A stretch of DNA of 33,015 nt from a virus. This document shows positions 5,063-27,761 of the stretch, piece after piece. The notes under the pieces were generated by a model. It was not told the origin of the DNA. It ran no database searches and worked only from the letters and a program-made list of their open reading frames with translations. The DNA is taken from IMG/VR virus record IMGVR_UViG_3300037117_000252, positions 1 to 33,015 of that record; one strand, 5' to 3'. Made by a program: the position numbers and the translations under genes. Position 1 is the first letter of the stretch, and every line of letters begins with the position of its first letter.

Positions 5063-7389
5063 CTGAACTTGTGAATGTTCTTGCCCATCACGTCCACCAC
5101 CCACGCTTCGTGGTCAGGATTTCTCTCAAGGTGATCCGCCATTTGTCTTGGATCGGTGAACGCGTAAATCGAGGTGTTGTGTTGCATGGGGGCTCCGGAG
5201 CCGGAGCCGCCGCCACCAACCAAACCGCCGTCAGCATAGCCGTGATGAATCTGCTCCAGGTTGCTGACGCCGATGCGCTGAACAGCCGGCGCGCTGAAGA
5301 CATATTCACCGCCATGCACGATGCCGGCCGCCTTGCGCGGGTCGCCGGCCCCCGTGTAACCGCCGTCGTCGAACATGGCGACGCCCTTGAGGGCATCCAC
5401 CACGACCAGGACCGCCTCCTCCACGAGCAGTTCAGCGACCACTTTGATTATCGCTTCAAGTACATTAGACACGAGCGCCTCTTCAATATTGAGCAGCCCC
5501 TGTTTCCAGGTCTCGGTGCCCTCGATCACTTTGGTGAGATTGCTGCTGACGGAATTGATGCCGGTGGTCAAGGCGCCCGTGAAAATATTGGCCGCGTTCT
5601 GCCCGAAATTGTTGACTCTCTGGAGCCCTTCCGCCCACTGCTGAACGTTGGCAACGAACGATCCTTTGTTCTGCGCATCCGCAAGTTTGTTTTGGAGGTC
5701 CACCTGCTTCTCCATGGACGAGTTTATTTTATCCAGCGCGGTGATGCGGGCCTGGTCACTGGTGGCAGGGTTGGCGACAATCGCATTTTGCGCGGATAAA
5801 TACGCCTCATTGGCGCCCAGCATCGACTGCAGCGGTCCGACGGATTGACGCGCCTTCTGGAGCGGTGACAGGCTGCGGTCGGTCTCAATCCGTTTGAGCT
5901 TCACCTCCGCCTCACCGCGGGCGATTTCCATCTTGATCTGCAGCTCCTTTTCTAGCTCGGCGTTATAACGTTTCTGACCGTCGTACATCTTGATCTGCGC
6001 CTGGTCAACCGCGTCGGCGTAGGTTTTCTCATCAATCTGGCCCGAATAAAGTGCCTCCGTGGCGGCAACGATGCGCTGTTTGTATTCCTGTTGCCAGAGG
6101 TCCTCGCGTTTCTTGCCGCTGCGGTCGGCCTGCAGCGTGATTTGGGCATCGATCTGTTTGTTGGTCTCGGCAAAATCCTTGAGGCCCTGCTCGCGGATCT
6201 TGTTTTCGGATTCCACCTGCGCCTTTGCCGCTTCCTCCTGGGCCTTGCTGTCAATGGCGGCCAGCTTCGTCGGCAGTGCCGCGTCGGTCTCCGATTTGAG
6301 GGCGTTGAGCCTCCCGATCGCGGTGTCGACGTTGGCGATTTCGGCCGTGATGGCTGATTTCACGCCAGTGGTGCCGGCCTGTCCGAGTTTCGTTTCCAGG
6401 TCCTGGCGCCCTTTCTGAGCCAGCTGCAGCCGCTGGTTCAGCTCGTCCATTTCCTCGTCGTGCTTTTGCCGGGCGGCTTCGCGCGCCTTTTCCACGCCGG
6501 CCAGGTTGTCCAGCGTGATTTTCTTTTGCAGGGCATCGACGCTTTCCAGGTCCTCCAGTTCGGGGTTCTTTTCGTAGGTCTTGTTCCCCGTCTTGACATC
6601 CGTTTTTTCAAGCAGGATGCCCAGCTGCGCAAGCTGCTCGTTGATCTTGGCCTGAACGCCCGGCAACGACGCGTCGTAAGCCGCCTGGGCGCGCTTAAAA
6701 TTCTCCGCCGCCATGTCCTCGCCCGGCTGAACACCACTTTCAGATGCGACTTGCGCGAAGGTGCTTTGTGGTAGATTGGCGCCCTTGCCAACTCCGCCCG
6801 CCCAATCCATGGCCTTGTCCAGCCAGTTCTTTCCCGGTTTAGACACCGGCGTGGTCGAAGCGCCGGCCAGCGCCTGGTTCATTTGATCGGCGGTTTCCTT
6901 GGGCAGAATTCCGCCTTGGGCGGCGTCGTGGATGGTTTTGAGGAGCGCGGGGAATCGCTGCAGTGATTCAGCCATGTCGTTGTTGGCCTGGATCGCCTCC
7001 TCCTCGGCTGATTTGTATTCGTGCCAAACCCACAGGCCGCCGCCCACTGCCGCCGCCACCAACCCGACGACGGGCAACAAGGTTGAGAGCGACAGACCCA
7101 GTGACATGGAAATGGCGCGCGTGCCCATCATGCCAGCGGTGGCCAGTAAAATGCCTCGCGTAAATTCCGGGAAAGATCCGCCCATCAACATCAACGCATA
7201 ATTCAGGCCCCGGAGCGGGTCGGTGAGCGCCCGCACGCCCTCGCGGGTGATCGCAAGGCCCGCGCCGGCCTCGGCGCCCTTGGTGGCCAACTGCTGCAAG
7301 GCGCCCCCGCTCTGGGTTACGAACTGCTGCAGCGCGGCTGCAGCCTGCGCGGTCTCGGCGGTTACTATGATTTTAATCGGTTGGGTCAT
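5059..7389 (-). CDS. tape measure protein
   Basis: This 776-residue protein follows the tail chaperone directly: the chaperone's -1 frame ends in TAA at 7390-7392 and the ATG is at 7389. The N-terminus is Ala/Gln-rich helix. Residues about 75-125 form a long hydrophobic, Gly-rich segment typical of tape measures that insert into the membrane during DNA entry. Residues about 230-540 are a charged, heptad-rich coiled coil. The C-terminus has the typical tape-measure ending (DDGGYTGAGDPRK, then IVHGGEYVFSAPAVQ). In the family it sets tail length and passes through the tube. The length would predict a tail of roughly 110-120 nm if the usual 0.15 nm per residue holds. Confidence 0.9.
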   Translation of the reverse strand: MTQPIKIIVTAETAQAAAALQQFVTQSGGALQQLATKGAEAGAGLAITREGVRALTDPLRGLNYALMLMGGSFPEFTRGILLATAGMMGTRAISMSLGLSLSTLLPVVGLVAAAVGGGLWVWHEYKSAEEEAIQANNDMAESLQRFPALLKTIHDAAQGGILPKETADQMNQALAGASTTPVSKPGKNWLDKAMDWAGGVGKGANLPQSTFAQVASESGVQPGEDMAAENFKRAQAAYDASLPGVQAKINEQLAQLGILLEKTDVKTGNKTYEKNPELEDLESVDALQKKITLDNLAGVEKAREAARQKHDEEMDELNQRLQLAQKGRQDLETKLGQAGTTGVKSAITAEIANVDTAIGRLNALKSETDAALPTKLAAIDSKAQEEAAKAQVESENKIREQGLKDFAETNKQIDAQITLQADRSGKKREDLWQQEYKQRIVAATEALYSGQIDEKTYADAVDQAQIKMYDGQKRYNAELEKELQIKMEIARGEAEVKLKRIETDRSLSPLQKARQSVGPLQSMLGANEAYLSAQNAIVANPATSDQARITALDKINSSMEKQVDLQNKLADAQNKGSFVANVQQWAEGLQRVNNFGQNAANIFTGALTTGINSVSSNLTKVIEGTETWKQGLLNIEEALVSNVLEAIIKVVAELLVEEAVLVVVDALKGVAMFDDGGYTGAGDPRKAAGIVHGGEYVFSAPAVQRIGVSNLEQIHHGYADGGLVGGGGSGSGAPMQHNTSIYAFTDPRQMADHLERNPDHEAWVVDVMGKNIHKFR

Positions 7390-7626
7390 TTACGATTTGG
7401 CTGTGATTATTTTAACCAGCGCGTCCCGCTGATGTTCCCAGCTTTTGGCGTCGCCTTGTGCGGCCACCATCAGGTTCAGCATCCGCCGCGCGTCCTGGCG
7501 GCGATGCGCCGCAGCCAGGGCGCTCAACTGCTCCCAGCTCAAGTCCAGCGCGGCCCGCAGCGTCAGGCCGCTGGCGGCGGCAAGGTCGCAGACCGAGTCG
7601 AGGAATTCAGCTCGCCTTTCACCAGT
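7390..7626 (-). CDS. -1 frame extension of the tail assembly chaperone (probable programmed frameshift)
   Basis: The -1 frame relative to the upstream chaperone gene is open up to a TAA just before the tape measure ATG, and it has no ATG or GTG start at its beginning. From 7626 it encodes 78 residues. The segment from EFLDSV onward (DLAAASGLTLRAALDLSWEQ, then ARRMLNLMVAAQGDAKSW) is a compact helical domain. The 0-frame reading of the same DNA (STRSATLPPPAA) looks like noise. This is the G/GT arrangement of siphovirus tail chaperones. Candidate slip sites are the A5 run at 7626-7630 and the T8 run at 7688-7695, which contains a phased T TTT TTT heptamer. Switching near the A5 run preserves the 0-frame helix and is preferred. 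Confidence 0.6.
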   Translation of the reverse strand, partial: TGERRAEFLDSVCDLAAASGLTLRAALDLSWEQLSALAAAHRRQDARRMLNLMVAAQGDAKSWEHQRDALVKIITAKS

Positions 7627-7943
7627 TTTTCGAGCATCTCCGGCGGCAGGTTTTTCAGGTTCGCCTCGATCTGCCGGGCGGCATAGGAAAAAAAACCATC
7701 CGCATTGGCCTCCTTCATCGCGTCAAACACGGCCTGGTAACTCGCCGGACACAGCGATTCAATCAGCGACCGCGGCTTGCTGCACGCCCGCGCGCACATG
7801 GTGATTTCGTCAGTCACGAACGGCAGGAGCGCCGGATATTCCTTTACCTTGAACTGGCGCACGGCCAGCGTGTCCTGGCGGCCGTCATCGAAGGTGACCG
7901 CGACGTCTTTGCTGCCAAAGAGAGTGGTGAGTTTTGTGTTCAT
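7563..7943 (-). CDS. tail assembly chaperone (lambda G-like)
   Basis: This 126-residue 0-frame product lies between the tail tube region and the tape measure. It starts MNTKLTTLFGSKDVAVTF and has an N-terminal beta segment (FDDGRQDTLAVRQFKVKEYPALLPF) typical of tail chaperones related to lambda G. A helical region follows (AARQIEANLKNLPPEMLEKLVKGE). The last dozen residues (NSSTRSATLPPPAA) are low-complexity, and the better-formed sequence continues in the -1 frame. The predicted role is to coat and fold the tape measure before tube polymerisation; it should be absent from the mature virion. Confidence 0.7.
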   Translation of the reverse strand: MNTKLTTLFGSKDVAVTFDDGRQDTLAVRQFKVKEYPALLPFVTDEITMCARACSKPRSLIESLCPASYQAVFDAMKEANADGFFSYAARQIEANLKNLPPEMLEKLVKGELNSSTRSATLPPPAA

Positions 7944-7953
7944 ATTTTTTCTA

Positions 7954-8295
7954 TTAGTTCATGCCGAGTCCTCTTTTCCTGAACAGTTCCTTTATCCGTT
8001 GCCAGAGCGAGTTCCACCGCGCCGCCATTTCGTGGTTCTCAACGAACTGCGTCTGGATAACTTTACAGCCCTCCAGCCACCATTGGTGGGCGCGGTCGAA
8101 AAGGTCTTGCATACCGTAGTTGTCGATCTTGTGAAGGTTGTAGGTTCCACGCTTGTAGTTCTGCCTGTAAAGTCCTTGCTTCTGCTGGTACGGCTCGGTC
8201 GGCAGTCCCATGACTTTCAACACACGCGACAACGTCATCCGGTCAATGTTTTGCTTGTCGGGCAGCAACTTCAGAGTTGTGGCAAGTGAGTTCAT
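7954..8295 (-). CDS. hypothetical protein, basic, tail-region
   Basis: This 113-residue protein starts at the ATG at 8295, which forms an ATGA overlap with the stop of the fibronectin III gene. It begins MNSLATTLKLLPDKQNIDRM. It is helical and basic, with many aromatic residues, and ends with a Lys/Arg-rich helix (LWQRIKELFRKRGLG). I do not recognise the family. The N-terminal 35 residues could be a small helix-turn-helix (MTLSRVLKVMGLPTEPY), but no known DNA-binding signature is clear. It sits between the secreted fibre-type genes and the tail chaperone, so it may be a chaperone or adaptor for those proteins. Confidence 0.6.
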   Translation of the reverse strand: MNSLATTLKLLPDKQNIDRMTLSRVLKVMGLPTEPYQQKQGLYRQNYKRGTYNLHKIDNYGMQDLFDRAHQWWLEGCKVIQTQFVENHEMAARWNSLWQRIKELFRKRGLGMN

Positions 8296-8894
8296 TTTGT
8301 CGCTGGCAACGGCGGCAGAATCTTCATCATCTGCAACATGGAAGCCATGGCTGAGTTTGTGTCCGGCGGCGGGTTGGTTGTAATCGTGAACCCGATTACC
8401 TGATTTGAAAGCCACTGGAATCTTAGGAACGCGGACGGCAGGTTCGTGAACAGACCGGGGAACGGCACTCCACGATTAGCCCAGTTCGTCCCCTTCAAGC
8501 TCGGCCCGTACTGCTCTTGATACCACGGGATGGTGATATTGTTCGTCACAAAAACGTTTGTGGTTGGCACAGTGTAACTCAACTCCTGTGACATCGCGCT
8601 TTCCAACCTGTTACTCAAGGCCGTCGCGGCGAACCAATAAGTCGTTCCCTCCCCCAATCCTGCAACCGTAGCGTTGGTCACAGTGCCGAGGAACAAGGCT
8701 ACCATCAGTGAATTGCTTGTGGTATTGGTATAGATATTGTACCCCGTCGCACCGGGAACCGGATTCCACGCCAGCGTCACGCTCGGGCCGGGCGGTGGGG
8801 CGGCGCCGAAGCATTCAGCCCCAGACCCCAGACCCCAGATCCCAGACCCTAAACAGACCCAAAACCCTAAACAAATGCGGGCGGCGGTTTTCAC
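8292..8894 (-). CDS. secreted fibronectin type III domain protein
   Basis: This 200-residue protein starts at GTG 8894, overlapping the stop of the GH27-like gene (GTGA). Residues 1-31 look like a Sec signal: a basic n-region (MKTAAR), then a hydrophobic Gly/Trp/Leu core, then GAECFGAA before a Pro-rich linker. The core is encoded by a heptanucleotide repeat. Residues about 38-110 match a fibronectin III domain (SVTLAWNPVPGATGYNIY, then TTYWFAATALSN). The C-terminal part is Asn/Thr-rich and ends in a short helix (MLQMMKILPPL). FnIII domains in phage tails bind carbohydrates or act as spacers. Translational coupling to the hydrolase gene suggests a joint surface function. Confidence 0.7.
   Translation of the reverse strand: MKTAARICLGFWVCLGSGIWGLGSGAECFGAAPPPGPSVTLAWNPVPGATGYNIYTNTTSNSLMVALFLGTVTNATVAGLGEGTTYWFAATALSNRLESAMSQELSYTVPTTNVFVTNNITIPWYQEQYGPSLKGTNWANRGVPFPGLFTNLPSAFLRFQWLSNQVIGFTITTNPPPDTNSAMASMLQMMKILPPLPATK
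8821..8871. repeat. heptanucleotide repeat array encoding a signal-peptide core
   Basis: There are four 7-bp units (ccagacc, ccagacc, ccagatc, ccagacc) at 8821-8848. A degenerate tail follows to 8871 (ctaaacagaccc, then aaaaccctaaac). Read on the minus strand it supplies Leu, Gly, Trp, Ser and Ile codons that form the hydrophobic core of the FnIII protein's signal peptide. It belongs to the same class as six other 7-bp arrays in this window. Confidence 0.85.
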
Positions 8895-11656
8895 TTAATC
8901 AACGCCGGAAAAGCGAACTCCATTGGGTCGCCAAAGTCGTTCGCGAGAAAAGCCGGATTCAAGCAGGTCAGCAGGATGGCAATGCGGTTGCCGCCGGCGA
9001 CGTTTAGGCTCACAGTTTTGTTAATCGGGCCGCCGGTCTGGTTGACGAGATTGAAGTTGGTCAGGACTGTCCCGTCGAGGGTGATGGAAACAGCCTCGTT
9101 CAGATTGCTTCCCCCAATGGTCAAGTCCTCCTGATAATTATAGCCACAGGTGACGGTGAAATTCGTCGCACCGCCCACCGGGTAGGAAACATACCCCTGC
9201 GGATACAAAGCGAAATAATTTGAGTAACCCACGCCCGATCCGGCATAGGAGAAGTTGTTTCCATTATTGTAATTCGCCGTGAACTGGACGCCGTTATAAT
9301 TTGTCGGCGCGCCGCCGTAGGGATTTCGCGGCCAGCAATTGGTCCAATCATCGCCCGGCGCCTGCTGCGTAAGCCAATTGGTTCCCGGACTGTAAAAAGC
9401 GATTTGGCCGGCATACGCCTTAAACAGGCGCGTGTCCCATTCCCGGACTGGAATAGTGATCGCGTTTGAGCCGTAGCCGTACCATTGATTGGCCCAGCAG
9501 TCGAACAGGGTGAAAACATTGGTGCCCAACCCCAATAACGAACTGGTCAAGGCAATGCTCTGGACATTGGTGCTGCCGTTCCGCAGGCCCACCGCGCAGT
9601 GGCTCCCATCGAAACCGAGCGGGCTCACCCAGATTTCCTCCGCATAGTTGGTAAACGGTTCGCTGATCTGTGATCCGGGCGGCTTGACCGGCAGCGTCCC
9701 GCCCCAGTTGGTCGTGTACACATTGACGACCGATTCGTTGGTCATTAAAGAAGAAACACCATTGTTCCAGACCGGGTAACCCGCGGCCAGGTTGGCGTCC
9801 TGGTCGATTTGCAGAACGAACAGGTTGGTGAAGAAAGAGAGCGGCGACTGAAAATCATTGAGCGCCGCGGGACCGCTAAGGTTGAGGGGATAATCACTGT
9901 CAATGATCGGCGCGCGGGAGATCGCCGAGAGCGCCAGTTTGGTCCTCAGCGCGTCGTTGCCGAGCTTGGGCACGAGATATATGCCGCCCTGGTACCCGTT
10001 AACCTCGAACAAATTGTTGTCCACATAAAATCCCCGGCCCGTTTGAGTCCGACCCTGCAAAATCCACTGGAATTGGGTGAGGTCGTTGGTGTAGAATTCA
10101 TACGCTTCATGGCCATTCGAGCTGTCGTAATTATTGCCATCGGGGAGGGCCTCGTCCATTTCCTTGCTCATCCACGGCTCGACCGTCGCCACGCTGCTCC
10201 CTAAAAAGATGATATGTTTATTCGGGCAATCCGCGGCGATGTCACTGATGATCTGCTCCAAAAACCAGCGGTACTGTTTGGTCGTGTGCCACGCAGCCGG
10301 ATTGGTGGAAACACCGCCGGGCGGGAACCCCTCGACTTTGACACCGTCAATATTCCAGCTCGCCACGACCGCCGCATCGGCGTCGACGTTCGTTCCGCTG
10401 TAAGCGGAGCCGAAATTAAAATAAAGGCCCACCAAAAACCCATTTGTGTGGAGCATGTTTACGAACGTCGGAACGCCTGGGCTCCAGTTTGAGTTCCAGC
10501 TGTATAATCCGTTGGTCCGGTATATATAACCATAGTCCAGCCAAAACCACGGCTGCACCCCGTTATTTTGCCAGAAGGCCACCATGCCGTTGGTGATGAG
10601 GCCGTTCAAAAACGCGGCGTCATTGGCAAAAGTCGTGGCTACCCCGGCACTGGCGTAATAATCGTTGAAACCAATGATTGGCCGCCTCAACGGTTTTGCC
10701 GTCGGAATGTCAACGGCGCGGTAACCGTTGGTGATCACATTGCCCGAGCCATCGTAGCCCATGATCGGAATCACACTGCCAGGGATAATCGTCGCCAGGT
10801 TTGTTGGGTTGAAAACCAGGTTACTGGAATAGATAGCCATACTGTTGCTTACGCTGTTAAGCATGGCGGTCAGATTCGTGGAGATGACCACCCCCAGAAA
10901 AGTCGCGTTGATATTCGTCCCGTTAAAGAAATAGCCATAGTTGAAGCTCACGGCCTGATTGGTGCCGGCCGTCGTGAATGTGCCGGTCAGCCCGAGATTT
11001 CCTCCTAGCGGGCTCATCGCGTTATTAGTGTTCACCAGGGCCGCCGCCTGCGCGGGCGTGAGCGGGACAAAAGCCAGGCCGGTGGCGTTGGTCAGCGCCA
11101 GCCAATTGGTGTTCGAGAAGTTGGGAGTCGACTTGACCCATTCGGCGACGAAATTGTAGTTCACATCGAACTGCATGAAGATCGCGCCGATGTTCGCCAT
11201 GACCGCGCCGTTGGGCGCGTTGGTTGCCCAATAAAATGTTCCCAGGATCGCGCCCGGAGCCGGACCTCTATTATTGCCGCCACCCGAGATCCCGCCGGGA
11301 CCGCCGGCACCGCCAGCCAGCGTGTAGTACGTCAGCACACCGTTGGTGGCCAGGTACGAGCAGTTTGCGCCATTGGTGTTGGCAATGGCACTGAACAGGT
11401 TGGCGCGCGCCACACCCAGCCCGGCATTGACCAGGGCCACCCCGACGTCGGCGTTCGTGCCGACCAAGGTGGCGTGCGTCCCATTGACGAGATTTGTGCT
11501 CCCCTCAAACGTCCATTGGCCGGAGGAATTGGTGGAATACAACGCGACCGTCACCGGCCCGGACAGATCGTTGGTGGCGGCAAAGTTGAAGCTGGCGCGG
11601 GCGCAGGAAACGGCCGCCAGAACGCCCAGAACAGAAAGTAGAATTTTATTTTTCAT
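8891..11656 (-). CDS. secreted GH27-like (alpha-galactosidase fold) protein, possible tail spike or depolymerase
   Basis: This 921-residue protein has a Sec signal (MKNKILLSVLGVLAAVSCARA). An Asn/Thr-rich N-terminal region (about 22-320) includes a Gly-rich linker near 115-130. A clan GH-D-like barrel spans about 325-640. Recognisable pieces are IIGFNDYYAS at the first strand, QPWFWLDYGY at the second, MLHTNGFLVGLYFNFG for 'IH..G...GIY..', and SWNIDGVKVEG for 'W..DYLK.D'. ISRAPIIDSDYPLNL and LFVLQIDQDANLAAG match the 'APL..ndl' and 'I.vNQD' signatures of GH27. The position of the catalytic Asp nucleophile holds Glu442. The C-terminal ~200 residues are beta-rich and probably carbohydrate-binding. 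The gene lies between tail tube and chaperone genes, so virion attachment is possible despite the Sec signal. Confidence 0.7.
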   Translation of the reverse strand: MKNKILLSVLGVLAAVSCARASFNFAATNDLSGPVTVALYSTNSSGQWTFEGSTNLVNGTHATLVGTNADVGVALVNAGLGVARANLFSAIANTNGANCSYLATNGVLTYYTLAGGAGGPGGISGGGNNRGPAPGAILGTFYWATNAPNGAVMANIGAIFMQFDVNYNFVAEWVKSTPNFSNTNWLALTNATGLAFVPLTPAQAAALVNTNNAMSPLGGNLGLTGTFTTAGTNQAVSFNYGYFFNGTNINATFLGVVISTNLTAMLNSVSNSMAIYSSNLVFNPTNLATIIPGSVIPIMGYDGSGNVITNGYRAVDIPTAKPLRRPIIGFNDYYASAGVATTFANDAAFLNGLITNGMVAFWQNNGVQPWFWLDYGYIYRTNGLYSWNSNWSPGVPTFVNMLHTNGFLVGLYFNFGSAYSGTNVDADAAVVASWNIDGVKVEGFPPGGVSTNPAAWHTTKQYRWFLEQIISDIAADCPNKHIIFLGSSVATVEPWMSKEMDEALPDGNNYDSSNGHEAYEFYTNDLTQFQWILQGRTQTGRGFYVDNNLFEVNGYQGGIYLVPKLGNDALRTKLALSAISRAPIIDSDYPLNLSGPAALNDFQSPLSFFTNLFVLQIDQDANLAAGYPVWNNGVSSLMTNESVVNVYTTNWGGTLPVKPPGSQISEPFTNYAEEIWVSPLGFDGSHCAVGLRNGSTNVQSIALTSSLLGLGTNVFTLFDCWANQWYGYGSNAITIPVREWDTRLFKAYAGQIAFYSPGTNWLTQQAPGDDWTNCWPRNPYGGAPTNYNGVQFTANYNNGNNFSYAGSGVGYSNYFALYPQGYVSYPVGGATNFTVTCGYNYQEDLTIGGSNLNEAVSITLDGTVLTNFNLVNQTGGPINKTVSLNVAGGNRIAILLTCLNPAFLANDFGDPMEFAFPALIK

Positions 11657-11677
11657 GATGAAATAGGTTTCGGTGCA

Positions 11678-11715
11678 GCTGCATCCGGCGCGGGCAAACC
11701 CCGCGCCGGGGCAGC
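11678..11715. promoter_or_regulatory. strong hairpin upstream of the GH27-like gene
   Basis: A perfect 10-bp inverted repeat (ccggcgcggg at 11685-11694, cccgcgccgg at 11700-11709) has a 5-nt loop. It is extended by gctgc at 11678-11682 pairing with gcagc at 11711-11715. On the minus strand there is no U-tract after it. On the plus strand it is followed by a T7 run. It lies between the 60-residue gene and the signal-peptide gene and could attenuate transcription, protect an mRNA end, or mark a cargo boundary. Confidence 0.6.
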
Positions 11716-11726
11716 CAATTTTTTTG

Positions 11727-11909
11727 TTAAACGTCGGTGTGTTCGCCCTCCGCCACGTCCTTCGGTTTGGGCGGGTTCAACGGATCGACCGCCTGGTGCT
11801 CGATGTCATCAAAGGCCGGATGCTCGGGCGCCTTGAACGGCGGCGACGGATAGGGCTTGGGCGGATCGCGATGGTCCACCGGCAGATGTTCGATTTCGTT
11901 TTTAGCCAT
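11727..11909 (-). CDS. small Pro/Asp/Glu/His-rich hypothetical protein
   Basis: This 60-residue acidic protein (MAKNEIEHLPVDHRDPPKPY) lies directly downstream of the tail tube gene and before a strong hairpin. It contains Pro-rich repeats of the type DPPKP, NPPKPK and SPPFKAPEHPAF and no hydrophobic segment, so it is probably disordered. No family is recognised. Being next to the tail tube gene, it could be a tail-tube accessory peptide. Confidence 0.5.
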   Translation of the reverse strand: MAKNEIEHLPVDHRDPPKPYPSPPFKAPEHPAFDDIEHQAVDPLNPPKPKDVAEGEHTDV

Positions 11910-11948
11910 AAAATCAGTTCGTTTCGTTGTGTGCGTTGTGAGCGCCGG

Positions 11949-12512
11949 TTAAATGTTCGAACCCTGCAACGCCGAGTAGAGCCAGGTGAACAGGAACTTG
12001 GGCGTGATCAGGTTTGGATCCGAGTTGGTGATGTCGGTGCAGTTCAGGTCCACCCACCAGTCGTCCACGATCCAGGGCGTGCCGTTGGCCTGGCTGGCGT
12101 CGTAGCGCTGGCGCTTGAGCCAGCCCTGGAATCCGGCCGAGGTGGACAGCGGCGTGAAGGACGTGGCGTTGGTGGCGATCAGGCCCGCCTTGTAAAAACC
12201 GCCGATGGCCAGCCGGCTGATCTCGTTCATCTCCACTTCCATGCTGAGCTCGTGCTCCGGCCGGATGATGTTGCGCAGCGAGATCGTCCCGCTGCCGGGC
12301 AACGGCGCGGTCGTCTTGATCTCCTTGGAGGTGACCTTGTCCTGCGTTGGTTTCTTGACCGTGCCCAGCGCCCACGTGGTCCAGATCGGATCCGTCGGGT
12401 CGGGGATGGCCGTCGCCGCCACGATGCCGGCGGCCGGGATGGTGTACGCCTGGCCGGCAGGCGCGAAGTAGAGAAAATCGCCGGTGGCGATTACGGATGG
12501 TTGTGCTTGCAT
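11949..12512 (-). CDS. major tail tube protein
   Basis: This 187-residue protein has an ATG preceded by AAAGGT at suitable spacing. It begins MQAQPSVIATGDFLYFAPAG and is a beta-rich, Thr/Ala-rich protein of the size of siphovirus tube proteins. The central segment KTTAPLPGSGTISLRNIIRPEHELSMEVEMNEIS resembles the loop and strand pattern of lambda V-type tubes. It ends FLFTWLYSALQGSNI. It precedes chaperone and tape measure genes as expected, although a cargo block (GH27-like and FnIII genes) is inserted in between. Tail tube is the best call by size, fold pattern and context. Confidence 0.65.
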   Translation of the reverse strand: MQAQPSVIATGDFLYFAPAGQAYTIPAAGIVAATAIPDPTDPIWTTWALGTVKKPTQDKVTSKEIKTTAPLPGSGTISLRNIIRPEHELSMEVEMNEISRLAIGGFYKAGLIATNATSFTPLSTSAGFQGWLKRQRYDASQANGTPWIVDDWWVDLNCTDITNSDPNLITPKFLFTWLYSALQGSNI

Positions 12513-12685
12513 TTTTTACCTTTGGTTGTTGGCTTGCCGCGCCATGGCGTCTCGCCGCGTCGTAACGCAGTGAAGACGGGAGCGACGGCGGGTTGAGTAT
12601 TGGTTGTTCATTTCGAAAACGTCTCGCTGCACTCGTTTGATGAGAATATTTTCATAAAATCCAGATGGTGATGGGTTTGGTCATG
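12513..12685 (-). other. 173-bp spacer between fibre and tail tube genes with a chain of mini-ORFs
   Basis: On the minus strand three tiny ORFs follow each other with ATGA overlaps: 12684-12652 (10 codons, MTKPITIWIL), 12655-12608 (15 codons, MKIFSSNECSETFSK) and 12611-12516 (31 codons). The last ends 3 bp before the tail tube ATG. The DNA of the third looks like a dispersed Arg/Thr-coding repeat rather than a conserved gene. No promoter or terminator is clear. Confidence 0.4.
12516..12611 (-). CDS. possible 31-residue Arg-rich leader peptide before the tail tube gene
   Basis: ATG at 12611 to TAA at 12516-12518 encodes a 31-residue peptide, MNNQYSTRRRSRL at the start and MARQANNQR at the end. 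Six of its residues between positions 8 and 20 are Arg. The TAA is separated by three A bases from the tail tube ATG, so ribosomes could re-initiate there. Composition and context also fit a translated dispersed repeat, so this is a weak call. Confidence 0.2.
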   Translation of the reverse strand: MNNQYSTRRRSRLHCVTTRRDAMARQANNQR

Positions 12686-15652
12686 TCAGTGAGTGGCTGT
12701 GGCTTGAAGCGTCCATGAACATCCAGGGAATGAGAATGTTCCCCCTGATTCATTAGAAACCTGCATATAGTATGTGTTCGTCTGCCAGTTTGCATTGGTG
12801 ACGGTGTAGGAATCTATCAAGTCGTTTGTCTGATGGTAGTTGTATGCGCCATCACCTTTTATTCTGCCCATGATTCCAGTAAAGGTTGAATTTACATAAA
12901 CCCGAAATGCGATATTGGTGGTTGTCAGCATTTGAACTGTCCCCATCGAGCACAACAAATTTGTAAGTGTGAATGGCGTAGATAAGGCCATAGGGCAAAC
13001 AAAGGTTATCGTTGTATTACCATAACCAATCGAAGAAATAGCCCCCTCATTATTCAACCCTCTCCACTGCACCGCTGAAGCTCCAACACCAATGCTGTTT
13101 GCAATCCATCCATTTATTGTGTGTTCAACTGTGGTTGAACTGCTGCTGCTCGCCGGGGCGTTGCTCCACGTCACCGCTGAACCAGTTGAGGTAAGCACTT
13201 GACCGGAGGTTCCGCCGCTGTTGTTGATGGTGGAAACTGGCGTATTTGTCGCAACGTATGTCCAATTAGTGCTGCCGTCAGCATTGGCAACTGGCGTAAA
13301 ATACCCATTGGTGGAAGTGAACCCTTTTGCAAACGGCATGTTGGTTTGGCCTACGCTGTTCTGTGTCGCCAGTTGGGTTAGGATGCTATTGGTCGGCTGA
13401 TACACGCCGTTTACGGCTGCCCCTGTCAAGTTTGCCGCCGTTGCCGCCGCGCTGTTGGTGGCCGTCACTAGGATGCTATTTGTGGCTGGGGTAATAAGCG
13501 TTCCTGTAATCAAAGCCGAAGCGTTTGTGGCTGTCGTTAAAATGCTATTGGTCGCTGGTGTAATTAGGGTTGCGGTTATAGCTGCGCCAGCGTTGGTTGC
13601 CGTGACCAAAATGCTATTCGTAGCTGCTGTAATCAATGAGGCTGATATTGCCGCTGCTCCATTTGTCGCCGCACCGATGATGGTGTTGGTTTGTGCGTTG
13701 AATGAATTGGTGCTGAGAAGGTTGTTTGTGGTCGGATACGCCGGCCATCCTCCTGCTGCCGTAGTTGCGCTACCCACGGCCATGTTTGGATATGTTCCAT
13801 TCGTTATGGCAAATTGATTGGTGGTCACATTCCCCGTCAAATTCGCTGCCGGAAATGTTCCTGTGCCAGTGTAGTTGAAATTAGTATCAAGATTGAACCA
13901 GTCCTGTGAAGATGAATTGGTTCCGCCGCACGTCAAGCCGTTATAGAAATAGGTCACGCTGTTTGATGTACTTGTGTAGGGAGTCACACCAACAAGGGTT
14001 GCATTAACCAGCGTCGGCCCGTTACTGAGAATCCCGGTTGTGACATTGGTGGATTGAGTAAGTGTAATTCCACTACTTCCACTCCCGCCAAAGTTGTTTG
14101 TTCCGATGGCAAGGTATCCCGCTGAACTTATGAGCACGGTTGACGTGTTTGTGTAGTATGTCCCCAAGACGAAATCGGGAACGCTGGTCAGCAGACTGAA
14201 CGGAATCGAAGGAATCAGTGAAATAGGGAGAACGGAATTAAGATTCGTAACCAAATTGCCATGCTCGTCCGTATTGTTCGCTCCCCAAATTCCCGTTCCT
14301 TGCAGCAAGGTCGGCATGATGGCGGGAACGAAGTTGTCCAAGATTTGAACCCCTGATATATTCGTGCTGATTGTGCTATAGAGAGCGATGGAATACTGGC
14401 TCCCCTGCAAACCGTTTGTGAAGTTGTTCCAATACTTGGTGTTATTCCCGGCAATGCGGATTTTAACAAATGGTGAATAATTGGTGTTGACGTTGTTCAG
14501 TTGAATCCCGGCGCGCCCGTAGGCCAGACTGTTTGTGTTCAGGTCAATCGTGTTGTGAATGATAAATAGGGTGTCAACGGACTGACACGTGATGTCCACA
14601 CCGTACCAGCAATTTATGAAATGATTTCCAAATGCCAGGATGTTGGTGATGTTTCCGGTGTCGGCGTAAAACGAGTAAAGTCCGCCATAAACGTAATTGT
14701 TAATGACTGAGGGATTGTTTGCTGCCGCCACATTGATTCCGACATAGAAGTTCTGAGTGGGTGGGTTGTTTAATTCCAGGACATTTGTGATGACGGGAAG
14801 ATAAACATGATTGTTCATCACCGTGGTGTCGCCAGCGGCTTGAATCCCATTAACGTAAGTGCCCAGAACATTCGTGACGATGCAGTCTTCAATATAGTCC
14901 CCGTAAGTGGCAGGGGGGTTTGTATATTCCAAAAAGAATACAAAAGCTTCTGTTCCGTTGGTCGAATTGCCGGAGGCATTGATGGCCTTTACGTTCCTGA
15001 CTATGTCACGATTCCCGTAATAATGAATTGCCTCATACTTATTCGATGAGGTGTTGCTCCCGTTACAATCCACCGTTAAATCTGAAACTTGAACATTGTC
15101 AGCATTTGCGTAGATTGTTCTGACTTCACTGGCGTTGGTGTTGGCGTAGCCGTAAAAAGACGAGTTGCGTTGGATTGTTGTGATGTCAATACCTGCCCCC
15201 CTCAGTCTGTCCCCGGCCAGCAGATAGGGGTCACCCGCGTTGTTGGCATTGCCTCGTGAAGAAAAAGTGCCAGGCAGGAGATGGAATAAAGTGTTGGCAG
15301 GTTGGGAATTGATGATGGCGTCAAAATCCCCATAAAAAGGAGTTGAAAGGAAACCGTTTCCTAAAATAGTTCCTGTATTGAAATCAGCCACGCTGTTGGA
15401 CGACGAGACCCACACCTCGTTTACAATTTGATTCGTGAGCGAACTGGTTCCCCCCCCTCCGCCGTTGTTCTGCACCGCCTGCACTGCGGTCGCAAAGCCG
15501 GGGTCGTTCTCCATGAAAATGAACGCATTGGTGCGGTGGTTGTTGAGCAGGAAATAAACGACGCCGTTGGTGTCGATCTGCAAATAAGAATAAGGCTGGG
15601 CGCCAGCCAGGATTGGCATCGCCAAAAGAAAAATGAACAGATATTTATTCAT
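12686..15652 (-). CDS. large secreted beta-helix fibre / tailspike-like protein
   Basis: This 988-residue protein starts at ATG 15652 (ATGA overlap with the tail completion gene). It begins with a clear Sec signal (MNKYLFIFLLAMPILAGA). Residues about 85-470 have right-handed parallel beta-helix character, with repeated 'NxxVxN' and 'xxNxFxNCxxGVDI' rungs such as DIVRNVKAINASGNS and ITNILAFGNHFINCWYGV. Residues about 655-760 contain 23-residue tandem repeats (TATNAGAAITATLITPATNS). The C-terminal 150 residues are a compact beta domain ending SFPGCSWTLQATATH. Beta-helix plus coiled repeats is typical of trimeric tailspikes that bind or cut surface polysaccharide. The gene is AT-richer than its neighbours: 27 of 60 bases are G or C at 14461-14520 against 43 of 60 at 22261-22320. 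This suggests recent acquisition. Confidence 0.68.
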   Translation of the reverse strand: MNKYLFIFLLAMPILAGAQPYSYLQIDTNGVVYFLLNNHRTNAFIFMENDPGFATAVQAVQNNGGGGGTSSLTNQIVNEVWVSSSNSVADFNTGTILGNGFLSTPFYGDFDAIINSQPANTLFHLLPGTFSSRGNANNAGDPYLLAGDRLRGAGIDITTIQRNSSFYGYANTNASEVRTIYANADNVQVSDLTVDCNGSNTSSNKYEAIHYYGNRDIVRNVKAINASGNSTNGTEAFVFFLEYTNPPATYGDYIEDCIVTNVLGTYVNGIQAAGDTTVMNNHVYLPVITNVLELNNPPTQNFYVGINVAAANNPSVINNYVYGGLYSFYADTGNITNILAFGNHFINCWYGVDITCQSVDTLFIIHNTIDLNTNSLAYGRAGIQLNNVNTNYSPFVKIRIAGNNTKYWNNFTNGLQGSQYSIALYSTISTNISGVQILDNFVPAIMPTLLQGTGIWGANNTDEHGNLVTNLNSVLPISLIPSIPFSLLTSVPDFVLGTYYTNTSTVLISSAGYLAIGTNNFGGSGSSGITLTQSTNVTTGILSNGPTLVNATLVGVTPYTSTSNSVTYFYNGLTCGGTNSSSQDWFNLDTNFNYTGTGTFPAANLTGNVTTNQFAITNGTYPNMAVGSATTAAGGWPAYPTTNNLLSTNSFNAQTNTIIGAATNGAAAISASLITAATNSILVTATNAGAAITATLITPATNSILTTATNASALITGTLITPATNSILVTATNSAAATAANLTGAAVNGVYQPTNSILTQLATQNSVGQTNMPFAKGFTSTNGYFTPVANADGSTNWTYVATNTPVSTINNSGGTSGQVLTSTGSAVTWSNAPASSSSSTTVEHTINGWIANSIGVGASAVQWRGLNNEGAISSIGYGNTTITFVCPMALSTPFTLTNLLCSMGTVQMLTTTNIAFRVYVNSTFTGIMGRIKGDGAYNYHQTNDLIDSYTVTNANWQTNTYYMQVSNESGGTFSFPGCSWTLQATATH
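13440..13685. repeat. 69-bp tandem repeats inside the beta-helix fibre gene
   Basis: The element containing atgctatt recurs near 13472, 13541 and 13610, a 69-bp period that matches a 23-residue protein repeat (core LIT-ATNSIL-TATN). A less similar copy flanks each side. Third positions differ between copies, so the array is not very recent and the amino-acid pattern is kept. Confidence 0.75.
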
Positions 15653-16275
15653 GCCGGGGTCTGCTTCATGATTCCGTCCACAAAGCTGATTTTCCAAACC
15701 TTCCCAACATTCGGACCATCAGTCGCTTGATCGGCGAAAGGATAAGTTACAATGTTGCCCTGGGCATTCAGCGCTGGAACCAGCACGCTATCTTCAATGA
15801 AGACCGGCAATGGCGGCGTGGACGGCGCGGTTGGCGCAATGAGGAGCGTTTCGATGGCTACCTCATAGAGCTGCCGTTTCTTGTCCGGCACATAATCACC
15901 CCGCGTCACGCGCAGCCAGTTAAAGCCCGGCACCTTTAGATTATGCAGCAACTGCGCCACGATGTGCGCCACTGTGGATGCCGGATCGCGCTGGTCCTTG
16001 CGCCAAAGAATCGGATGCTCGCCGACGGCCACCGCGCAATTGATCACGGATTCCAGGTTCGGATTTTGCTGCGTGGCCTTGTTGACGAAATGCGGCATCC
16101 CGACCAGGATGAGCATCCCAATCTGGCCGATGGCCCGGTTTATTTCCGTCTGCAGATCGTGCGCGTCCTCGCGCAACACCACGGCAGCGGCGTTGTTTGC
16201 CAAAGCTGCACCGGCCCATTGGGCTTGCTGCAACTGGTTCACAATGGCCGTGGTGATGTCATTAAGCACGGCCAT
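15649..16275 (-). CDS. tail completion / terminator-like protein
   Basis: This 208-residue protein begins MAVLNDITTAIVNQLQQAQW, the N-terminal helix pattern seen in phage tail-completion proteins of the Mu gp37/DUF1834 and lambda U kind. Its middle has VAHIVAQLLHNLKVPGF and a beta strand set ending YEVAIETLLIAPT. It starts one base after the virion morphogenesis gene and ends in an ATGA overlap with the fibre gene. In this position (after the head-tail connector genes and before the tube) it probably caps the tail or joins tail to head. The exact family is not certain. Confidence 0.55.
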   Translation of the reverse strand: MAVLNDITTAIVNQLQQAQWAGAALANNAAAVVLREDAHDLQTEINRAIGQIGMLILVGMPHFVNKATQQNPNLESVINCAVAVGEHPILWRKDQRDPASTVAHIVAQLLHNLKVPGFNWLRVTRGDYVPDKKRQLYEVAIETLLIAPTAPSTPPLPVFIEDSVLVPALNAQGNIVTYPFADQATDGPNVGKVWKISFVDGIMKQTPA

Positions 16276-16276
16276 A

Positions 16277-16939
16277 TCAGTTCGCGCCTCCTGCGCCGCC
16301 GCCGGCCGTGCCGGTTTCCAATAGCCGCGTCAAATAGTTGTCCAGGTGATACCGCGCCGCCTCGCTCATGTCCTCTTCCGATGGCATCACGTTGGGATCG
16401 CCTTCCTGTGTGACCTCGGGCACGAGCCAGAACAACACCATGCCGGCCGGGTTGGCGCGCATCGCGGTTTTGCCCTTGTTGGGACCGCGCGTGACGGTGG
16501 TTTGCATCGCCTGCACCAGCATCGCTTTGCCGGCGCCCCGCGGCACAAATGCCACGTCCTGTTCCTTGGAAACCTCCCACGGTGTTTTGCCTTCCACCTC
16601 ATCGGTTCCAATGGCCAGATATTTCGTCGGCCCACCGGTGACGTTGGAGGTGCCTTTGCCGGCGGTAATCGGTCCGCCCAGCCAGCGCTGTGCCAGGCCG
16701 ACCTTGTTGATCGTGAACGATGCGCCACCGGATTCGACAACCGGTTCCTCGATGGACTTGGCGGCGGCTGAATAAAAATGGCTGCGCGGGCTGCGTTCAT
16801 CCAAAGCGAATAAATGTTGGCGCGTCAGGTCCGCGGCGCCGCGTGCGGCCACCAGCGCCGCCTCCGGTTCCTTGCCGATCTGCGCGGCCTTTTCCTGCAG
16901 CTCATCGAGCGCCTCAGTTTGGAGACGGATGGAAATCAC
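16277..16939 (-). CDS. phage virion morphogenesis protein (Mu G / HK97 gp10-like)
   Basis: This 220-residue protein starts at GTG 16939, overlapping the upstream TGA (GTGA) with AGGAGG a few bases before. The longer in-frame ORF covers the upstream gene and is rejected. It begins MISIRLQTEALDELQEKAAQ, close to the start of Mu G-type 'virion morphogenesis' and gp10-type joining proteins. RQHLFALDERSPRSHFYSAA follows, a typical 'T..HF..L....P..W' type segment. It is probably a head-tail joining or tail-completion factor. The Gly-rich C-terminal tail (TAGGGAGGAN) is probably flexible. Confidence 0.6.
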   Translation of the reverse strand: MISIRLQTEALDELQEKAAQIGKEPEAALVAARGAADLTRQHLFALDERSPRSHFYSAAAKSIEEPVVESGGASFTINKVGLAQRWLGGPITAGKGTSNVTGGPTKYLAIGTDEVEGKTPWEVSKEQDVAFVPRGAGKAMLVQAMQTTVTRGPNKGKTAMRANPAGMVLFWLVPEVTQEGDPNVMPSEEDMSEAARYHLDNYLTRLLETGTAGGGAGGAN

Positions 16940-17724
16940 GCGGCCTCCTTTGCGAACGTTGAGATTTTTTCCATGAACGCCGCAAGCGCATCGGCAATGT
17001 TCATCGGTTTGGGCGCGGCATCGCCTTTGACCATGAGCCCAATGGCTTCGGTCTGCGCACGGTCCACGTCGCGCACCCACATGCCCGAGTTGAACGCGAA
17101 CGGCGGCCAGATGACATCCAGCGCGTCGTCGAACAAATCGGACGAACCGATCCAGTTCCAGATGTCATGATTCTTGAGCGCGATCATCCGTTCGTCCGGC
17201 GTGATGGTCCAGCCGGTGCCGATGGGATCGCCGGTTTGCGCGCCGGCGAGTTGCCAGCGGTTCAACCATTCCCGCGGTTCATGGCGCGCCTCGGCCCGGA
17301 ACAATTCCCACGCCGGCCATTCATCGAGGATGACGGGGTTCTGGTTGGAGATCCAAAGCCCCTGGCCCTGGGCCAATTCGGTGTTGGTTTTAATGACCAG
17401 GTTGATGCGCGCGTCGCTGGAGAGGTCCTGGAGCGTGCCCGCGACATCGGGCGCCGGTTCATAGCCGATTTCGTCAAGAAATTGTTTTATATCCTGGCGG
17501 ACATAGGCCGGGCTGAACTGCGTCGTCGCCTCGCCCTCCGCCGGCACCGGATTCAGGATGCCACCAATGCGGTCTTTATATTTCTCCAACAGATCACCGA
17601 GCATCGTCTGCGCGCTGAAAAACGATTGGGACCGGACCGAGGCGTCGATCTCGCGCAAGTCAGCGGTCGTCAGCCACGTCGGCATGACCTTTTTATCCAG
17701 CAGAATGTCAGCAGCGATGGACAT
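16936..17724 (-). CDS. minor head protein (possible Mu F-like role)
   Basis: I place the start at ATG 17724 because GGAGG lies nine bases upstream. The ATG at 17733 overlaps that site. The product is about 262 residues. The N-terminal part has DILLDKKVMPTWLTTADLRE. The C-terminal part has EWPAWELFRAEARHEPREWL, MIALKNHDIWNWI and then VIWPPFAFNSGMWVRDVDR. This series ('PAWE.. PR.W..RW', 'ALK.D.IW', 'PPF.FNSGM.VRDV') is one I associate with phage minor head proteins in Mu-like gene clusters. In Mu the F gene sits between portal and protease, whereas here the candidate lies after the major capsid and DUF1320 genes. The cysteines of the classical Mu F C-terminus are absent. Confidence 0.5.
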   Translation of the reverse strand: MSIAADILLDKKVMPTWLTTADLREIDASVRSQSFFSAQTMLGDLLEKYKDRIGGILNPVPAEGEATTQFSPAYVRQDIKQFLDEIGYEPAPDVAGTLQDLSSDARINLVIKTNTELAQGQGLWISNQNPVILDEWPAWELFRAEARHEPREWLNRWQLAGAQTGDPIGTGWTITPDERMIALKNHDIWNWIGSSDLFDDALDVIWPPFAFNSGMWVRDVDRAQTEAIGLMVKGDAAPKPMNIADALAAFMEKISTFAKEAA

Positions 17725-17725
17725 A

Positions 17726-18169
17726 TCAGCCATCCTCCCGGTTTTTCCGGCGATGTTTGAAATCGCCAAACGACGGCGCCGGCTGCGCCTGTTCAAAGGC
17801 TTCCGTCGCGGGATTGTCCGGCGGGTCAACAAAATCCTTGCCGTCGCGGACGTCGCGCAATTCCTGGTCGCGCCGCTTGAGACCGTCGCGTTCGTCCTGG
17901 GTCAGGTCCTGTTCGAGCGCGATCTTCAGCCGGGCGACAATGATGTCCACCGCACAATTTTTCAGACCGCCAGGAATCTTGGTGATGTCCTGGTCGAGCA
18001 CCGTCACGCGCGCGACCTTGCGCCGGATTTCAGCCACCACGTCGGCGATGACATCCGTCGAGCGGGCAACCTGGCCCGCGCCGAGCTGCACGGAGTCGGC
18101 GGCATCAATCAATGCGGCCGCCTTCGAGTCGTACAGGCTCGCTTTGGTGATGGAAATCCAGTTGGACAT
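17726..18169 (-). CDS. head-tail connector protein, DUF1320 (Mu gp36-like)
   Basis: This 147-residue protein has the layout of DUF1320 proteins. The N-terminus is short (ITKASLYDSKAAALIDAADS). A helical segment follows (DVIADVVAEIRRKVARV), then the 'P..LK......I...L' core (KIPGGLKNCAVDIIVARLKI). The C-terminal tail is low-complexity and charged (FGDFKHRRKNREDG). DUF1320 proteins act as head-completion or connector subunits in Mu-like phages and follow the major capsid gene, as here except for one inserted secreted-protein gene. It ends two bases before the preferred ATG of the minor head gene. Confidence 0.72.
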   Translation of the reverse strand: MSNWISITKASLYDSKAAALIDAADSVQLGAGQVARSTDVIADVVAEIRRKVARVTVLDQDITKIPGGLKNCAVDIIVARLKIALEQDLTQDERDGLKRRDQELRDVRDGKDFVDPPDNPATEAFEQAQPAPSFGDFKHRRKNREDG

Positions 18170-18177
18170 TTTTAAAT

Positions 18178-18207
18178 GCCTGGCGCGGTTGGCATCCCGC
18201 GCCAGGC
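18178..18207. promoter_or_regulatory. perfect hairpin between the secreted-protein gene and the DUF1320 gene
   Basis: An 11-bp perfect inverted repeat (gcctggcgcgg at 18178-18188 and ccgcgccaggc at 18197-18207) has an 8-nt loop. On the minus strand it is followed by ATTTAAAAATG, leading straight into the DUF1320 start. It could be a weak terminator/attenuator or an mRNA processing site. Its GCGCGGG/CCCGCGC core resembles the hairpin at 11678-11715. Confidence 0.6.
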
Positions 18208-18223
18208 TGATTGGTTCAGGTCG

Positions 18224-18790
18224 TTAATTCGCGTACAGGCTGTAGCTGTACAACATCTGGCTCAGGGTAATGACGTTGGTGTGGCCGGCTCCAATCGTGC
18301 AGGACGACCAGCGCAGGAACGCGATATTATTGAGTGTGGATTTATCCACCACCGACAGGTCGCTTACTGCGTTCGTACCATTCAAGGCCGTTACGGTCTT
18401 GATCGGATGCGTTGTCGTCCAGTTGGTGGTCCCGCCGCTGCCCCCGACGAGCACGCCCGCATCGAAGTAATTTGTCATCAGCTCCGTGGCGGCCGCGTTG
18501 GTGCCAGTCACTTGCGGAAGCAACGCAAGACCCCAACCCTGCCGGATGGGAATCGGATCGCTGGTGATCGTCAACGTCACGGCCGCAGTGGTGGTGGTGT
18601 TGAGGTTGGTGGTCGTGGTCCCATAAAACGGCCCATTCGTGCTGCTGATGGCCGAGTTGGTGAAGGCGAGCGCCTTGGTCGAGTAAATGTCCGCATACGC
18701 CGGCATAACAAAAACGGCTAACAGACCGATGATGGCGGCAACCAGGAACAGTCGCGCCAGTGAGAATCGATTTCGTTTCGTAAAGTTCAT
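18224..18790 (-). CDS. secreted or membrane-anchored Thr/Asn-rich protein inserted in the head operon
   Basis: This 188-residue protein begins with a basic n-region (MNFTKRNRFSLAR), a hydrophobic core (LFLVAAIIGLLAVFV) and MPAYADI. This is a good Sec signal with an A-Y-A cleavage motif. The mature part is rich in Thr, Asn and Ser (GTTTTNLNTTTTAAVTLTI) and beta-prone, ending SQMLYSYSLYAN. It lies directly after the major capsid gene, where a decoration or head-fibre gene would be expected. It is bounded by an inverted heptamer array on one side and a hairpin on the other, like a cargo ('moron') gene. Its function is unknown. A head decoration protein would not normally be exported, so the signal peptide is the puzzle. 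Confidence 0.6.
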   Translation of the reverse strand: MNFTKRNRFSLARLFLVAAIIGLLAVFVMPAYADIYSTKALAFTNSAISSTNGPFYGTTTTNLNTTTTAAVTLTITSDPIPIRQGWGLALLPQVTGTNAAATELMTNYFDAGVLVGGSGGTTNWTTTHPIKTVTALNGTNAVSDLSVVDKSTLNNIAFLRWSSCTIGAGHTNVITLSQMLYSYSLYAN

Positions 18791-18817
18791 TTTATTTTTT
18801 TCAGTTGAATTGTTTTG

Positions 18818-18874: not shown

Positions 18875-18882
18875 CGATATGG

Positions 18883-19836
18883 TTATTTGTGCGCGCCGAC
18901 GGCGGCGGTGTTGGCGACGGAGGGCAGCACCGTCCAGTCCATCTTTAGCACCTGGTCGCGCTGATCTTCCGTGGTGTAGGTGCCCGGTTTGAAAAATCCG
19001 CCCATGCGGGCGAACGTCTTCATGAACGAGGGGTCCATGCGGTTCGGCGTCGAGTTGCTGGCGAACACAATCACCACGTTGTCCAGCAGGAACTGGATGT
19101 TCTCCGCCACACCGGCCGCGGACGTGTCGATGACCATCATCGAGAGCTGCACTTCCGGCGAGGTCATGAGCAGCCCGCCCACGTCCTCGATGGTTGGCGA
19201 TACCGTGCCGAGTGTTGATCGGCCACCCGCGCCGCCGCCCGCGGCGACGATGTAACGGCTCTTGACGTTTTTGTTGTTGCGAAACTGTTTGAACTTGGTG
19301 GTCCCAAACAGGATTTTCACCGGCGCGCCATTCTTCGCCGCCTTGAGGACGGAGAGAATCAGGTTATCGAGTTGCGCGATGGGATCAACGCCGTCGTCGG
19401 TGTAATCCACGGGCGCCGTGAGCGGGCTGGCCAGCGCCGACGCCTGGGCAAGCGTCACAATCTCGTTTTCCAGCGCGAGCGCCGCCGAATCCGCGATGAT
19501 GCCCTGGCCCTCCATGATGGAGAAGCCGAGCTGCTCGTCGGACAACCCGTCCACGTTGGGGATCGGGAAATCCAGCGCGTTCACTTCCAGCGTGGCCGCC
19601 ACGTCATCGGAGCTGAAGCCCAGCCGCGTGACCTGGCCGCCCGGCTGCCGTTTGGTGTCCGGCACGCGGTACCGGTTTTTGTCCGTGTACTTTTTGTACC
19701 GGAAATTGATGTCGGGCACCTCGCAGAGAGGCGCGATGAACTGGCCAACCGGCCGGATGGCGCGCTGGCTCACGGTGATGGCGAAGTTGGTCAGCAGCGG
19801 ACTGCCGGCCAACTGCGCGATTCTTGATTCTGGCAT
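18883..19836 (-). CDS. major capsid protein
   Basis: This 317-residue protein sits immediately downstream of the decoration protein and the Mu I-like protease. It has the size and sequence style of E/T-type major capsid proteins with an HK97 fold: QRAIRPVGQFIAPLCEVPD in the N-arm, then RYKKYTDKNRYRVPDTKRQPG and QLDNLILSVLKAAKNGAPV on the spine. The segment VKILFGTTKFKQFRNNKNVKSRY belongs to the axial domain. The end (GGFFKPGTYTTEDQRDQVLKMDW) is typical of this group. It builds the icosahedral head. The N-terminus (MPESRIAQLAG) shows no long propeptide, as in phages that use a separate scaffold. Confidence 0.85.
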   Translation of the reverse strand: MPESRIAQLAGSPLLTNFAITVSQRAIRPVGQFIAPLCEVPDINFRYKKYTDKNRYRVPDTKRQPGGQVTRLGFSSDDVAATLEVNALDFPIPNVDGLSDEQLGFSIMEGQGIIADSAALALENEIVTLAQASALASPLTAPVDYTDDGVDPIAQLDNLILSVLKAAKNGAPVKILFGTTKFKQFRNNKNVKSRYIVAAGGGAGGRSTLGTVSPTIEDVGGLLMTSPEVQLSMMVIDTSAAGVAENIQFLLDNVVIVFASNSTPNRMDPSFMKTFARMGGFFKPGTYTTEDQRDQVLKMDWTVLPSVANTAAVGAHK

Positions 19837-23173: not shown

Positions 23174-23311
23174 CCGCACCTCCTGCTAAAAGTAGCTGCA
23201 GCACGCTGCAATGCGGCCCAAGCGCGCCGGGGGCTGCAGCCGCTACGCAGATGGGCGGCAAACCGCCTGCGGCTGTCCTGCCGCGTAAATCGGCAATCGT
23301 AAATCGTAAAT
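23174..23311. repeat. intergenic spacer with heptanucleotide array after the terminase gene
   Basis: A four-unit 7-bp array (cgtaaat, cggcaat, cgtaaat, cgtaaat) fills 23284-23311 and abuts the terminase stop codon. The rest holds an imperfect inverted repeat (gtagctgcagc near 23193 against gctgcagccgctac near 23232) and a small ggcgg-caaa-ccgcc hairpin near 23253. No gene is supported in this spacer apart from the portal ribosome site next to 23173. Confidence 0.7.
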
Positions 23312-27760: not shown

Positions 27761-27761
27761 T

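Follow-up and report, generated by a model that had tools for sequence, protein, structure and literature searches.

For tailed phages, the cytoplasm is assumed to be the place where virion proteins fold and assemble. Signal peptides are found on the coat proteins of filamentous phages, virion proteins that are assembled from the membrane, with extrusion of the particle and without a preformed head; the phage described here, in contrast, is tailed, with a terminase, a portal and a tape measure. Lom of phage lambda is likewise signal-bearing and is encoded within the tail gene region. It represents a single moron and an outer-membrane protein (as annotated), whereas one to three large fibres and a capsid-adjacent gene are concerned here. 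The fibres share stalk, trimerisation and binding modules with tail fibres that carry the T4 fibritin foldon or LamG, FnIII and CBM domains. The foldon proteins of Stenotrophomonas phage Sonora, BcepNazgul and Vibrio phage Vp_R1 have no signal, unlike the foldon fibre of a relative described below (locus L004), and in a Limnohabitans phage the matching stalk lies well inside a longer fibre, not at the N-terminus.

Also close to the present case are five signal-bearing genes of unknown function in phages of Porphyromonas gingivalis, with Sec/signal peptidase I (Sec/SPI) signals whose predicted cut exposes a Gln; the authors suggested use of the host secretion system (PMC10367356). Sec/SPI signals and a predicted Gln after the cut are common to both. 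The Porphyromonas phages have a Bacteroidota host, however, and here tail fibres and the product of a capsid-adjacent gene carry the signals, in phages of Verrucomicrobiota, where the Gln exceeds the level in sampled hosts. A Q-rule has been described for Bacteroidetes (PMC5837995). Secreted endolysins (Lys44 of fOg44 and the SAR endolysins; reviewed in PMC6116005) are also phage proteins sent through Sec during infection, but they are lysis enzymes and not fibres. The target proteins of phage diversity-generating retroelements (DGRs) lack signal peptides, and this absence has been used to argue that variable proteins come from phages (PMC6199706). The literature searched, with subscription titles outside its scope, contained no account of tail fibres with Sec signals. 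Such signals across a lineage either break the assumption of cytoplasmic assembly or show free fibres as secreted agents, and in either case the way in which receptor-binding proteins are identified in metagenomic phages is affected.

Signal-bearing genes in the late operon

The window, i.e. the whole stretch of DNA analysed, is a 33 kb virus record from IMG/VR (33,015 nucleotides), and all genes used here are on its minus strand. A search based on the major capsid protein (MCP) yielded relatives (designated by L numbers) among further viral contigs and Verrucomicrobia MAGs, and the window virus infects Verrucomicrobia bacteria. L011 is a MAG of Verrucomicrobia subdivision 3. The Betaproteobacteria host given for L012 (CAJCIA010000214.1) was rejected as a mislabel; that genome draws the same phylum sample as L011.

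The late operon opens with the terminase, a Mu-like portal protein (21464..23179; PF06074, E 8e-22), a Mu-like prophage I protein, which represents a capsid protease/scaffold (20427..21467; PF10123, E 9e-13), a 147-residue protein and the MCP (18883..19836; phrog_1005), the query used for finding relatives. Directly after the MCP gene is a small gene with a Sec signal (18224..18790). Four head-tail genes follow, then a large fibre-like protein with a Sec signal (12686..15652), a probable tail tube protein (11949..12512; assigned by position and homologues in relatives, with no family match), a second large Sec-signal protein (8891..11656) and a small FnIII protein with a GTG start (8292..8894). 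A small gene without a signal (7954..8295) is ATGA-coupled to the FnIII gene. At the far end are a probable tail assembly chaperone (7563..7943; position, and homologues in L002 and L004), the tape measure protein (5059..7389; phrog_24) and tail-tip genes, one of which (265..2370; weak Phage-tail_3 match) has no signal and is possibly a conventional receptor-binding tip. A first-pass annotation had placed four Sec-signal genes in a virion structural operon, and all four open reading frames do lie within this one late operon.

How convincing are the signals? They were called with a rule-based caller of our own, not SignalP, that looks for a positive n-region, an uncharged h-region and an A-X-A-like site; for Sec/SPI we looked for a positive n-region, an uncharged h-region of 8-16 residues and small residues at -3/-1. 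On a small E. coli calibration set the caller found all 21 exported proteins. It also gave a score to three of the 74 nominally cytoplasmic proteins, and two of these, YaaX and YaaI, have the look of genuine exports. With annotated starts, only the genes at 18224, 12686, 8891 and 8292 were called within the structural operon, and their products show the Sec/SPI features, the FnIII protein marginally. Finding four signals among about 21 structural genes has p = 0.0002 if the measured false-positive rate applies, and 0.009 if that rate is set to 4%. The post-MCP protein scores 59.3, reached in none of 5000 residue shuffles, and its predicted signal (residues 1-33; 18692..18790) ends AYA^DIYS. 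For the 8891-11656 protein the score is 48.2 (6/5000 shuffles; residues 1-21, 11594..11656, ending ARA^SFNF) and for the 12686-15652 protein 43.7 (11/5000; residues 1-18, 15599..15652, ending AGA^QPYS, with Gln at +1).

The FnIII protein scores 36.2, which 80 of 5000 shuffles reach, and its signal is therefore marginal. A GGGTCTGG/GGATCTGG repeat (8821-8867) encodes part of its leader (8817..8894) and recurs at 18817-18875, in the intergenic region after the MCP gene (12 matches vs 2.4 expected). Of the four signals initially regarded as convincing, three stand as strong, whereas this one does not. The FnIII domain itself is like that of major tail proteins (phrog_4971).

The signal-encoding starts are supported by their context. 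The fibre gene begins with an ATG (15652) that shares 4 bp with the upstream stop (ATGA), the GTG of the FnIII gene (8894) does the same with the stop of the 8891-11656 gene (GTGA), and an A-rich leader 5' of the post-MCP gene is kept in L002, L003, L004 and L011. Internal starts past the signal, which the first-pass annotation had named as grounds for refutation, are not favoured: they are not kept across relatives, with none ahead of the cleavage site in L006, and it is the upstream starts that carry the conserved leader or stop/start overlaps.

Capsid and fibre slots in related phages

Signal-bearing genes directly follow the MCP gene in ten non-duplicate loci: the window, L002, L003, L004, L005/L006 (duplicates), L007, L010, L011, L012 and L024/L025 (duplicates). 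Among the MCP relatives, L008, L013-L023 and L026 have no such gene; in L026 a signal-bearing gene lies on the opposite flank of the MCP gene. Mature parts are related in all ten loci but L024, which is doubtful. In 10/10 loci A-X-A, V-X-A or G-X-A closes the hydrophobic stretch just before the mature start, which is predicted to be D, AD or Q. The signals diverge more than the mature parts; L004 and L011, for example, have similar mature parts and different signals, a pattern that fits how true signals evolve. When the post-MCP and 8891-11656 proteins were themselves used as queries of viral contigs, no relatives were found; searching with the MCP, followed by MCP alignment, worked.

The mature domain of the 18224-18790 protein is modelled as a beta-sandwich, probably jelly-roll-like, and as the mean pLDDT is 68 and Foldseek TM values are below 0.5, no specific relative of the fold is claimed. 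High-ranking Foldseek matches to infectious bursal disease virus would reflect a shared jelly-roll only. In L003 (9745-9975) and L006 (10992-11260) an extra N-terminal domain of 75-90 residues is fused ahead of the signal, a cytoplasmic part that would stay behind after cleavage; that of L003 resembles the small phage proteins phrog_2616 and phrog_829.

Not every hydrophobic leader is to be taken as a Sec signal. The MCP reading frames of L004 (9848-10933), L008 (8749-9864), L012 (2150-3256) and L026 (9872-10933), alone among the MCP relatives examined, have hydrophobic N-terminal extensions of 40-65 residues, and in L004 there is no alternative start codon near the canonical start. These extensions look like two-segment hairpins and must have a purpose other than export.

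The second slot lies between the tail tube and the chaperone/tape measure. Signal-bearing fibre-like genes occupy it in the window and in 10 of 17 MCP-family relatives (L002, L003, L004, L008, L010, L011, L019, L021, L022 and L026; the calls for L002, L003 and L022 were made partly by inspection). It is without a signal-bearing fibre in L006, L007, L016, L017, L020 and L024, and in L018 the one signal gene there is small and lipoprotein-like. A wider survey covered 338 sampled Verrucomicrobiota genomes, 109 of which have a Mu-like portal; 60 downstream regions were taken. Large signal genes are present in about 10 of the 60 (L084, L092, L097, L109, L113, L127, L128, L130, L133 and L138), and in L084, L092, L097, L113, L128 and L133 a large signal-bearing fibre-like gene is in this slot. 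In the MCP relatives and the surveyed operons a small signal-bearing gene often adjoins or follows the large one. Signal calls on tape-measure-like genes (L082, L138) and tube-like genes (L092, L011) were set aside as false. Many Verrucomicrobiota prophages of the same portal family are without such signal-bearing fibres. The first-pass annotation had proposed to check how often such signals occur in related phages, and with ten capsid-slot loci, 10/17 MCP relatives and about 10/60 portal loci the pattern is lineage-wide.

The controls were lambda, Mu, HK97, HK97/Mu-like contigs and two Bacteroidota phages. By automatic rules, a soluble signal gene of at least 350 residues is present in 11/40 usable loci vs 0/12 control loci (p = 0.05), a modest contrast in which a small number of the 11 are probably something other than fibres or may be false calls; at a threshold of at least 200 residues the counts are 20/40 and 3/12 (one of the three being lom), which is not significant. 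Fibres of lambda, Mu, HK97 and the two Bacteroidota phages carry no signals. In lambda, Mu, HK97 and the HK97/Mu-like contigs signals are found in lysis-region genes and in lom, which is the sole structural-region call in lambda. HK97-like L211 has one small signal-bearing gene ahead of the tape measure, and the remnant-like L221 one signal call. In Flavobacterium phage 11b and Bacteroides phage B40-8 the calls are small lipoprotein-like or lysis-type, with none on fibres.

Are the proteins in the second slot fibres? By their domain matches, several signal-bearing relatives are undoubted tail fibres. The L128 protein matches phrog_35419 (tail fiber, 1e-25), and tblastn matches it to 262 phage records; the L097 and L113 proteins match tail-fibre PHROGs, and in L113 TPTTLSGYGITDA comes directly after the signal. 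The L004 fibre has a fibritin foldon above the Pfam cut-off and matches annotated tail fibres. The L011 fibre has FnIII and LamG domains. The 12686-15652 and 8891-11656 proteins have no family match of their own, the FnIII protein alone among the window signal proteins having one. Module similarity links the former to the L002 fibre (1e-37) and the N-terminus of the latter to the L004 foldon fibre (3e-16), and through these relatives both are putatively tail fibres. The 8891-11656 protein had been called GH27-like, a label that can be kept only as a weak likeness of its C-terminal part: Melibiase_2 scores E = 0.033 (13.9 bits vs a cut-off of 23), a PDB GH27 match is weak (E 0.96), by eye KVE stands where the nucleophile motif K[YF]D is expected, and the AlphaFold model is unusable (pLDDT 30). 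The C-termini of the signal-bearing phage proteins are lectin, CBM or GH-like. The signal-bearing fibres begin right at the stalk; the usual virion-anchoring domain is absent, and the signal is in its place.

Probable export and possible fates of the fibres

Gln is at +1 of the predicted cut in 18/43 phage proteins vs 3/32 host exports (p = 0.002), and in 14/26 of the large phage proteins (p = 0.0003), the host sample comprising 32 exported proteins from seven genomes. The enrichment is suggestive, as the counts include related, non-independent sequences. With Gln at +1 in 3/32 host exports, a Bacteroidetes Q-rule taken from the host was dropped as an explanation. Five fibres have in common an IPW motif a few residues past the predicted cut. 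None of the 43 signal-bearing phage proteins has a second membrane segment, so the proteins should be soluble once cleaved. The L004 leader resembles a host prepilin on inspection; a type IV prepilin origin of this signal is not supported, with no Pfam match to the L004 or window protein even at E 10.

It appears reasonably probable that the leaders on these fibre-type phage proteins are true Sec/signal-peptidase-I signals, with export and cleavage a habit of Verrucomicrobiota phages. What is shown is the presence and conservation of the signals, where their genes sit in the operon and how they are coupled, and the tail-fibre nature of several members; export and cleavage in the host are inferred. 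Could the leaders instead serve assembly or membrane targeting within the cytoplasm, being retained or cut by the Mu-I-like phage protease? Signal-like leaders of capsid proteins cut by a prohead protease have been suggested in the Porphyromonas phages (PMC10367356). The MCPs of L004, L008, L012 and L026, which cannot be exported, bear hydrophobic N-termini, and in L003 and L006 75-90 residues precede the hydrophobic segment. The MCP extensions, however, are hairpin-like with no clear A-X-A, whereas the other leaders have a single h-region and an A-X-A, and the conserved -3/-1 residues and Gln at +1 fit signal peptidase I. We know of no fibres that are prohead protease substrates, which also counts against leaders without export, and this explanation is improbable. 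Still further down in likelihood, and very unlikely, are role-less relics of captured host secreted genes. The repeat-derived FnIII leader and the prepilin likeness in L004 point that way, but signal character has outlasted sequence divergence, the cleavage motif is kept in 10/10 loci and genuine tail-fibre stalks come after the signals.

If the proteins are exported, where would they act? In one scheme they never enter the virion, and as Lom-like morons in the envelope or released from the cell they mask receptors on the infected cell and debris or alter the host surface. There is a real but minor chance of this. In the manner of morons, the signal-bearing genes are inserted among late genes; lambda lom sets a precedent inside a tail region, and L211, with its small gene ahead of the tape measure, is comparable. 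The exported genes of the Porphyromonas phages (PMC10367356) can be read the same way. A free role is also favoured because there is no virion-anchoring domain before the stalk, the signal replacing it ahead of binding C-termini. Several features speak against it: in divergent phages the genes keep to the same places, next to the capsid gene and between tube and chaperone; translation is coupled through 4-bp overlaps; a trimerising foldon is present, and the stalks are of the kind usual in virion fibres; and no membrane anchor was found. Morons usually come and go; here the slots recur across relatives and two genes are coupled, and presence varies in distant relatives. The slots, the coupling and the fibre domains favour attachment to virions at lysis. 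Both fates fit export, and attachment is slightly ahead.

On the preferred reading, that of export and cleavage, the fibre, its small partner and the capsid-adjacent protein would be made late in infection in step with the other virion proteins. Each would pass through the inner membrane in unfolded form, be cut after A-X-A to shed its signal, and become a folded, soluble protein outside the cytoplasm. In the last and least certain step, exported fibres may meet and decorate tails and heads only as lysis breaks the envelope open, binding by the mature N-terminus that signal peptidase has exposed; we give this step somewhat less than an even chance. The model as a whole, whereby Verrucomicrobiota phages build on both sides of the inner membrane, with heads and tails made in the cytoplasm and with fibres and the capsid-adjacent protein exported by Sec, trimmed by the host and attached by the N-terminus at lysis, is tentative and perhaps unlikely in full. 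We know of no precedent for exported proteins assembling onto tailed virions. The first-pass annotation had posed a choice between released cargo and an assembly route with exported parts; the core of that idea survives every sequence test run, whereas its two halves are inseparable by sequence.

Other genes near the late operons

In several relatives (L016, 11473-12303; L018, 9694-10449; L021, 11465-12295; also L092, L113 and L133) the head-tail connector region contains an inserted gene that resembles DNA adenine methylase (WPGGK...PFFGGG). In the window, a class 3 lipase (26888-27976; PF01764, E 3e-29) adjoins the terminase region and is also present in L002 and L003; it is unusual in a phage and possibly represents a lysis enzyme. 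The start of its reading frame is overlapped by that of a further signal-bearing protein (MKLKSKILFLTVALGAICVAPAVKA; 27762-28385), which lies outside the operon, upstream of the terminase, and is related to a protein of L002 (170-913).
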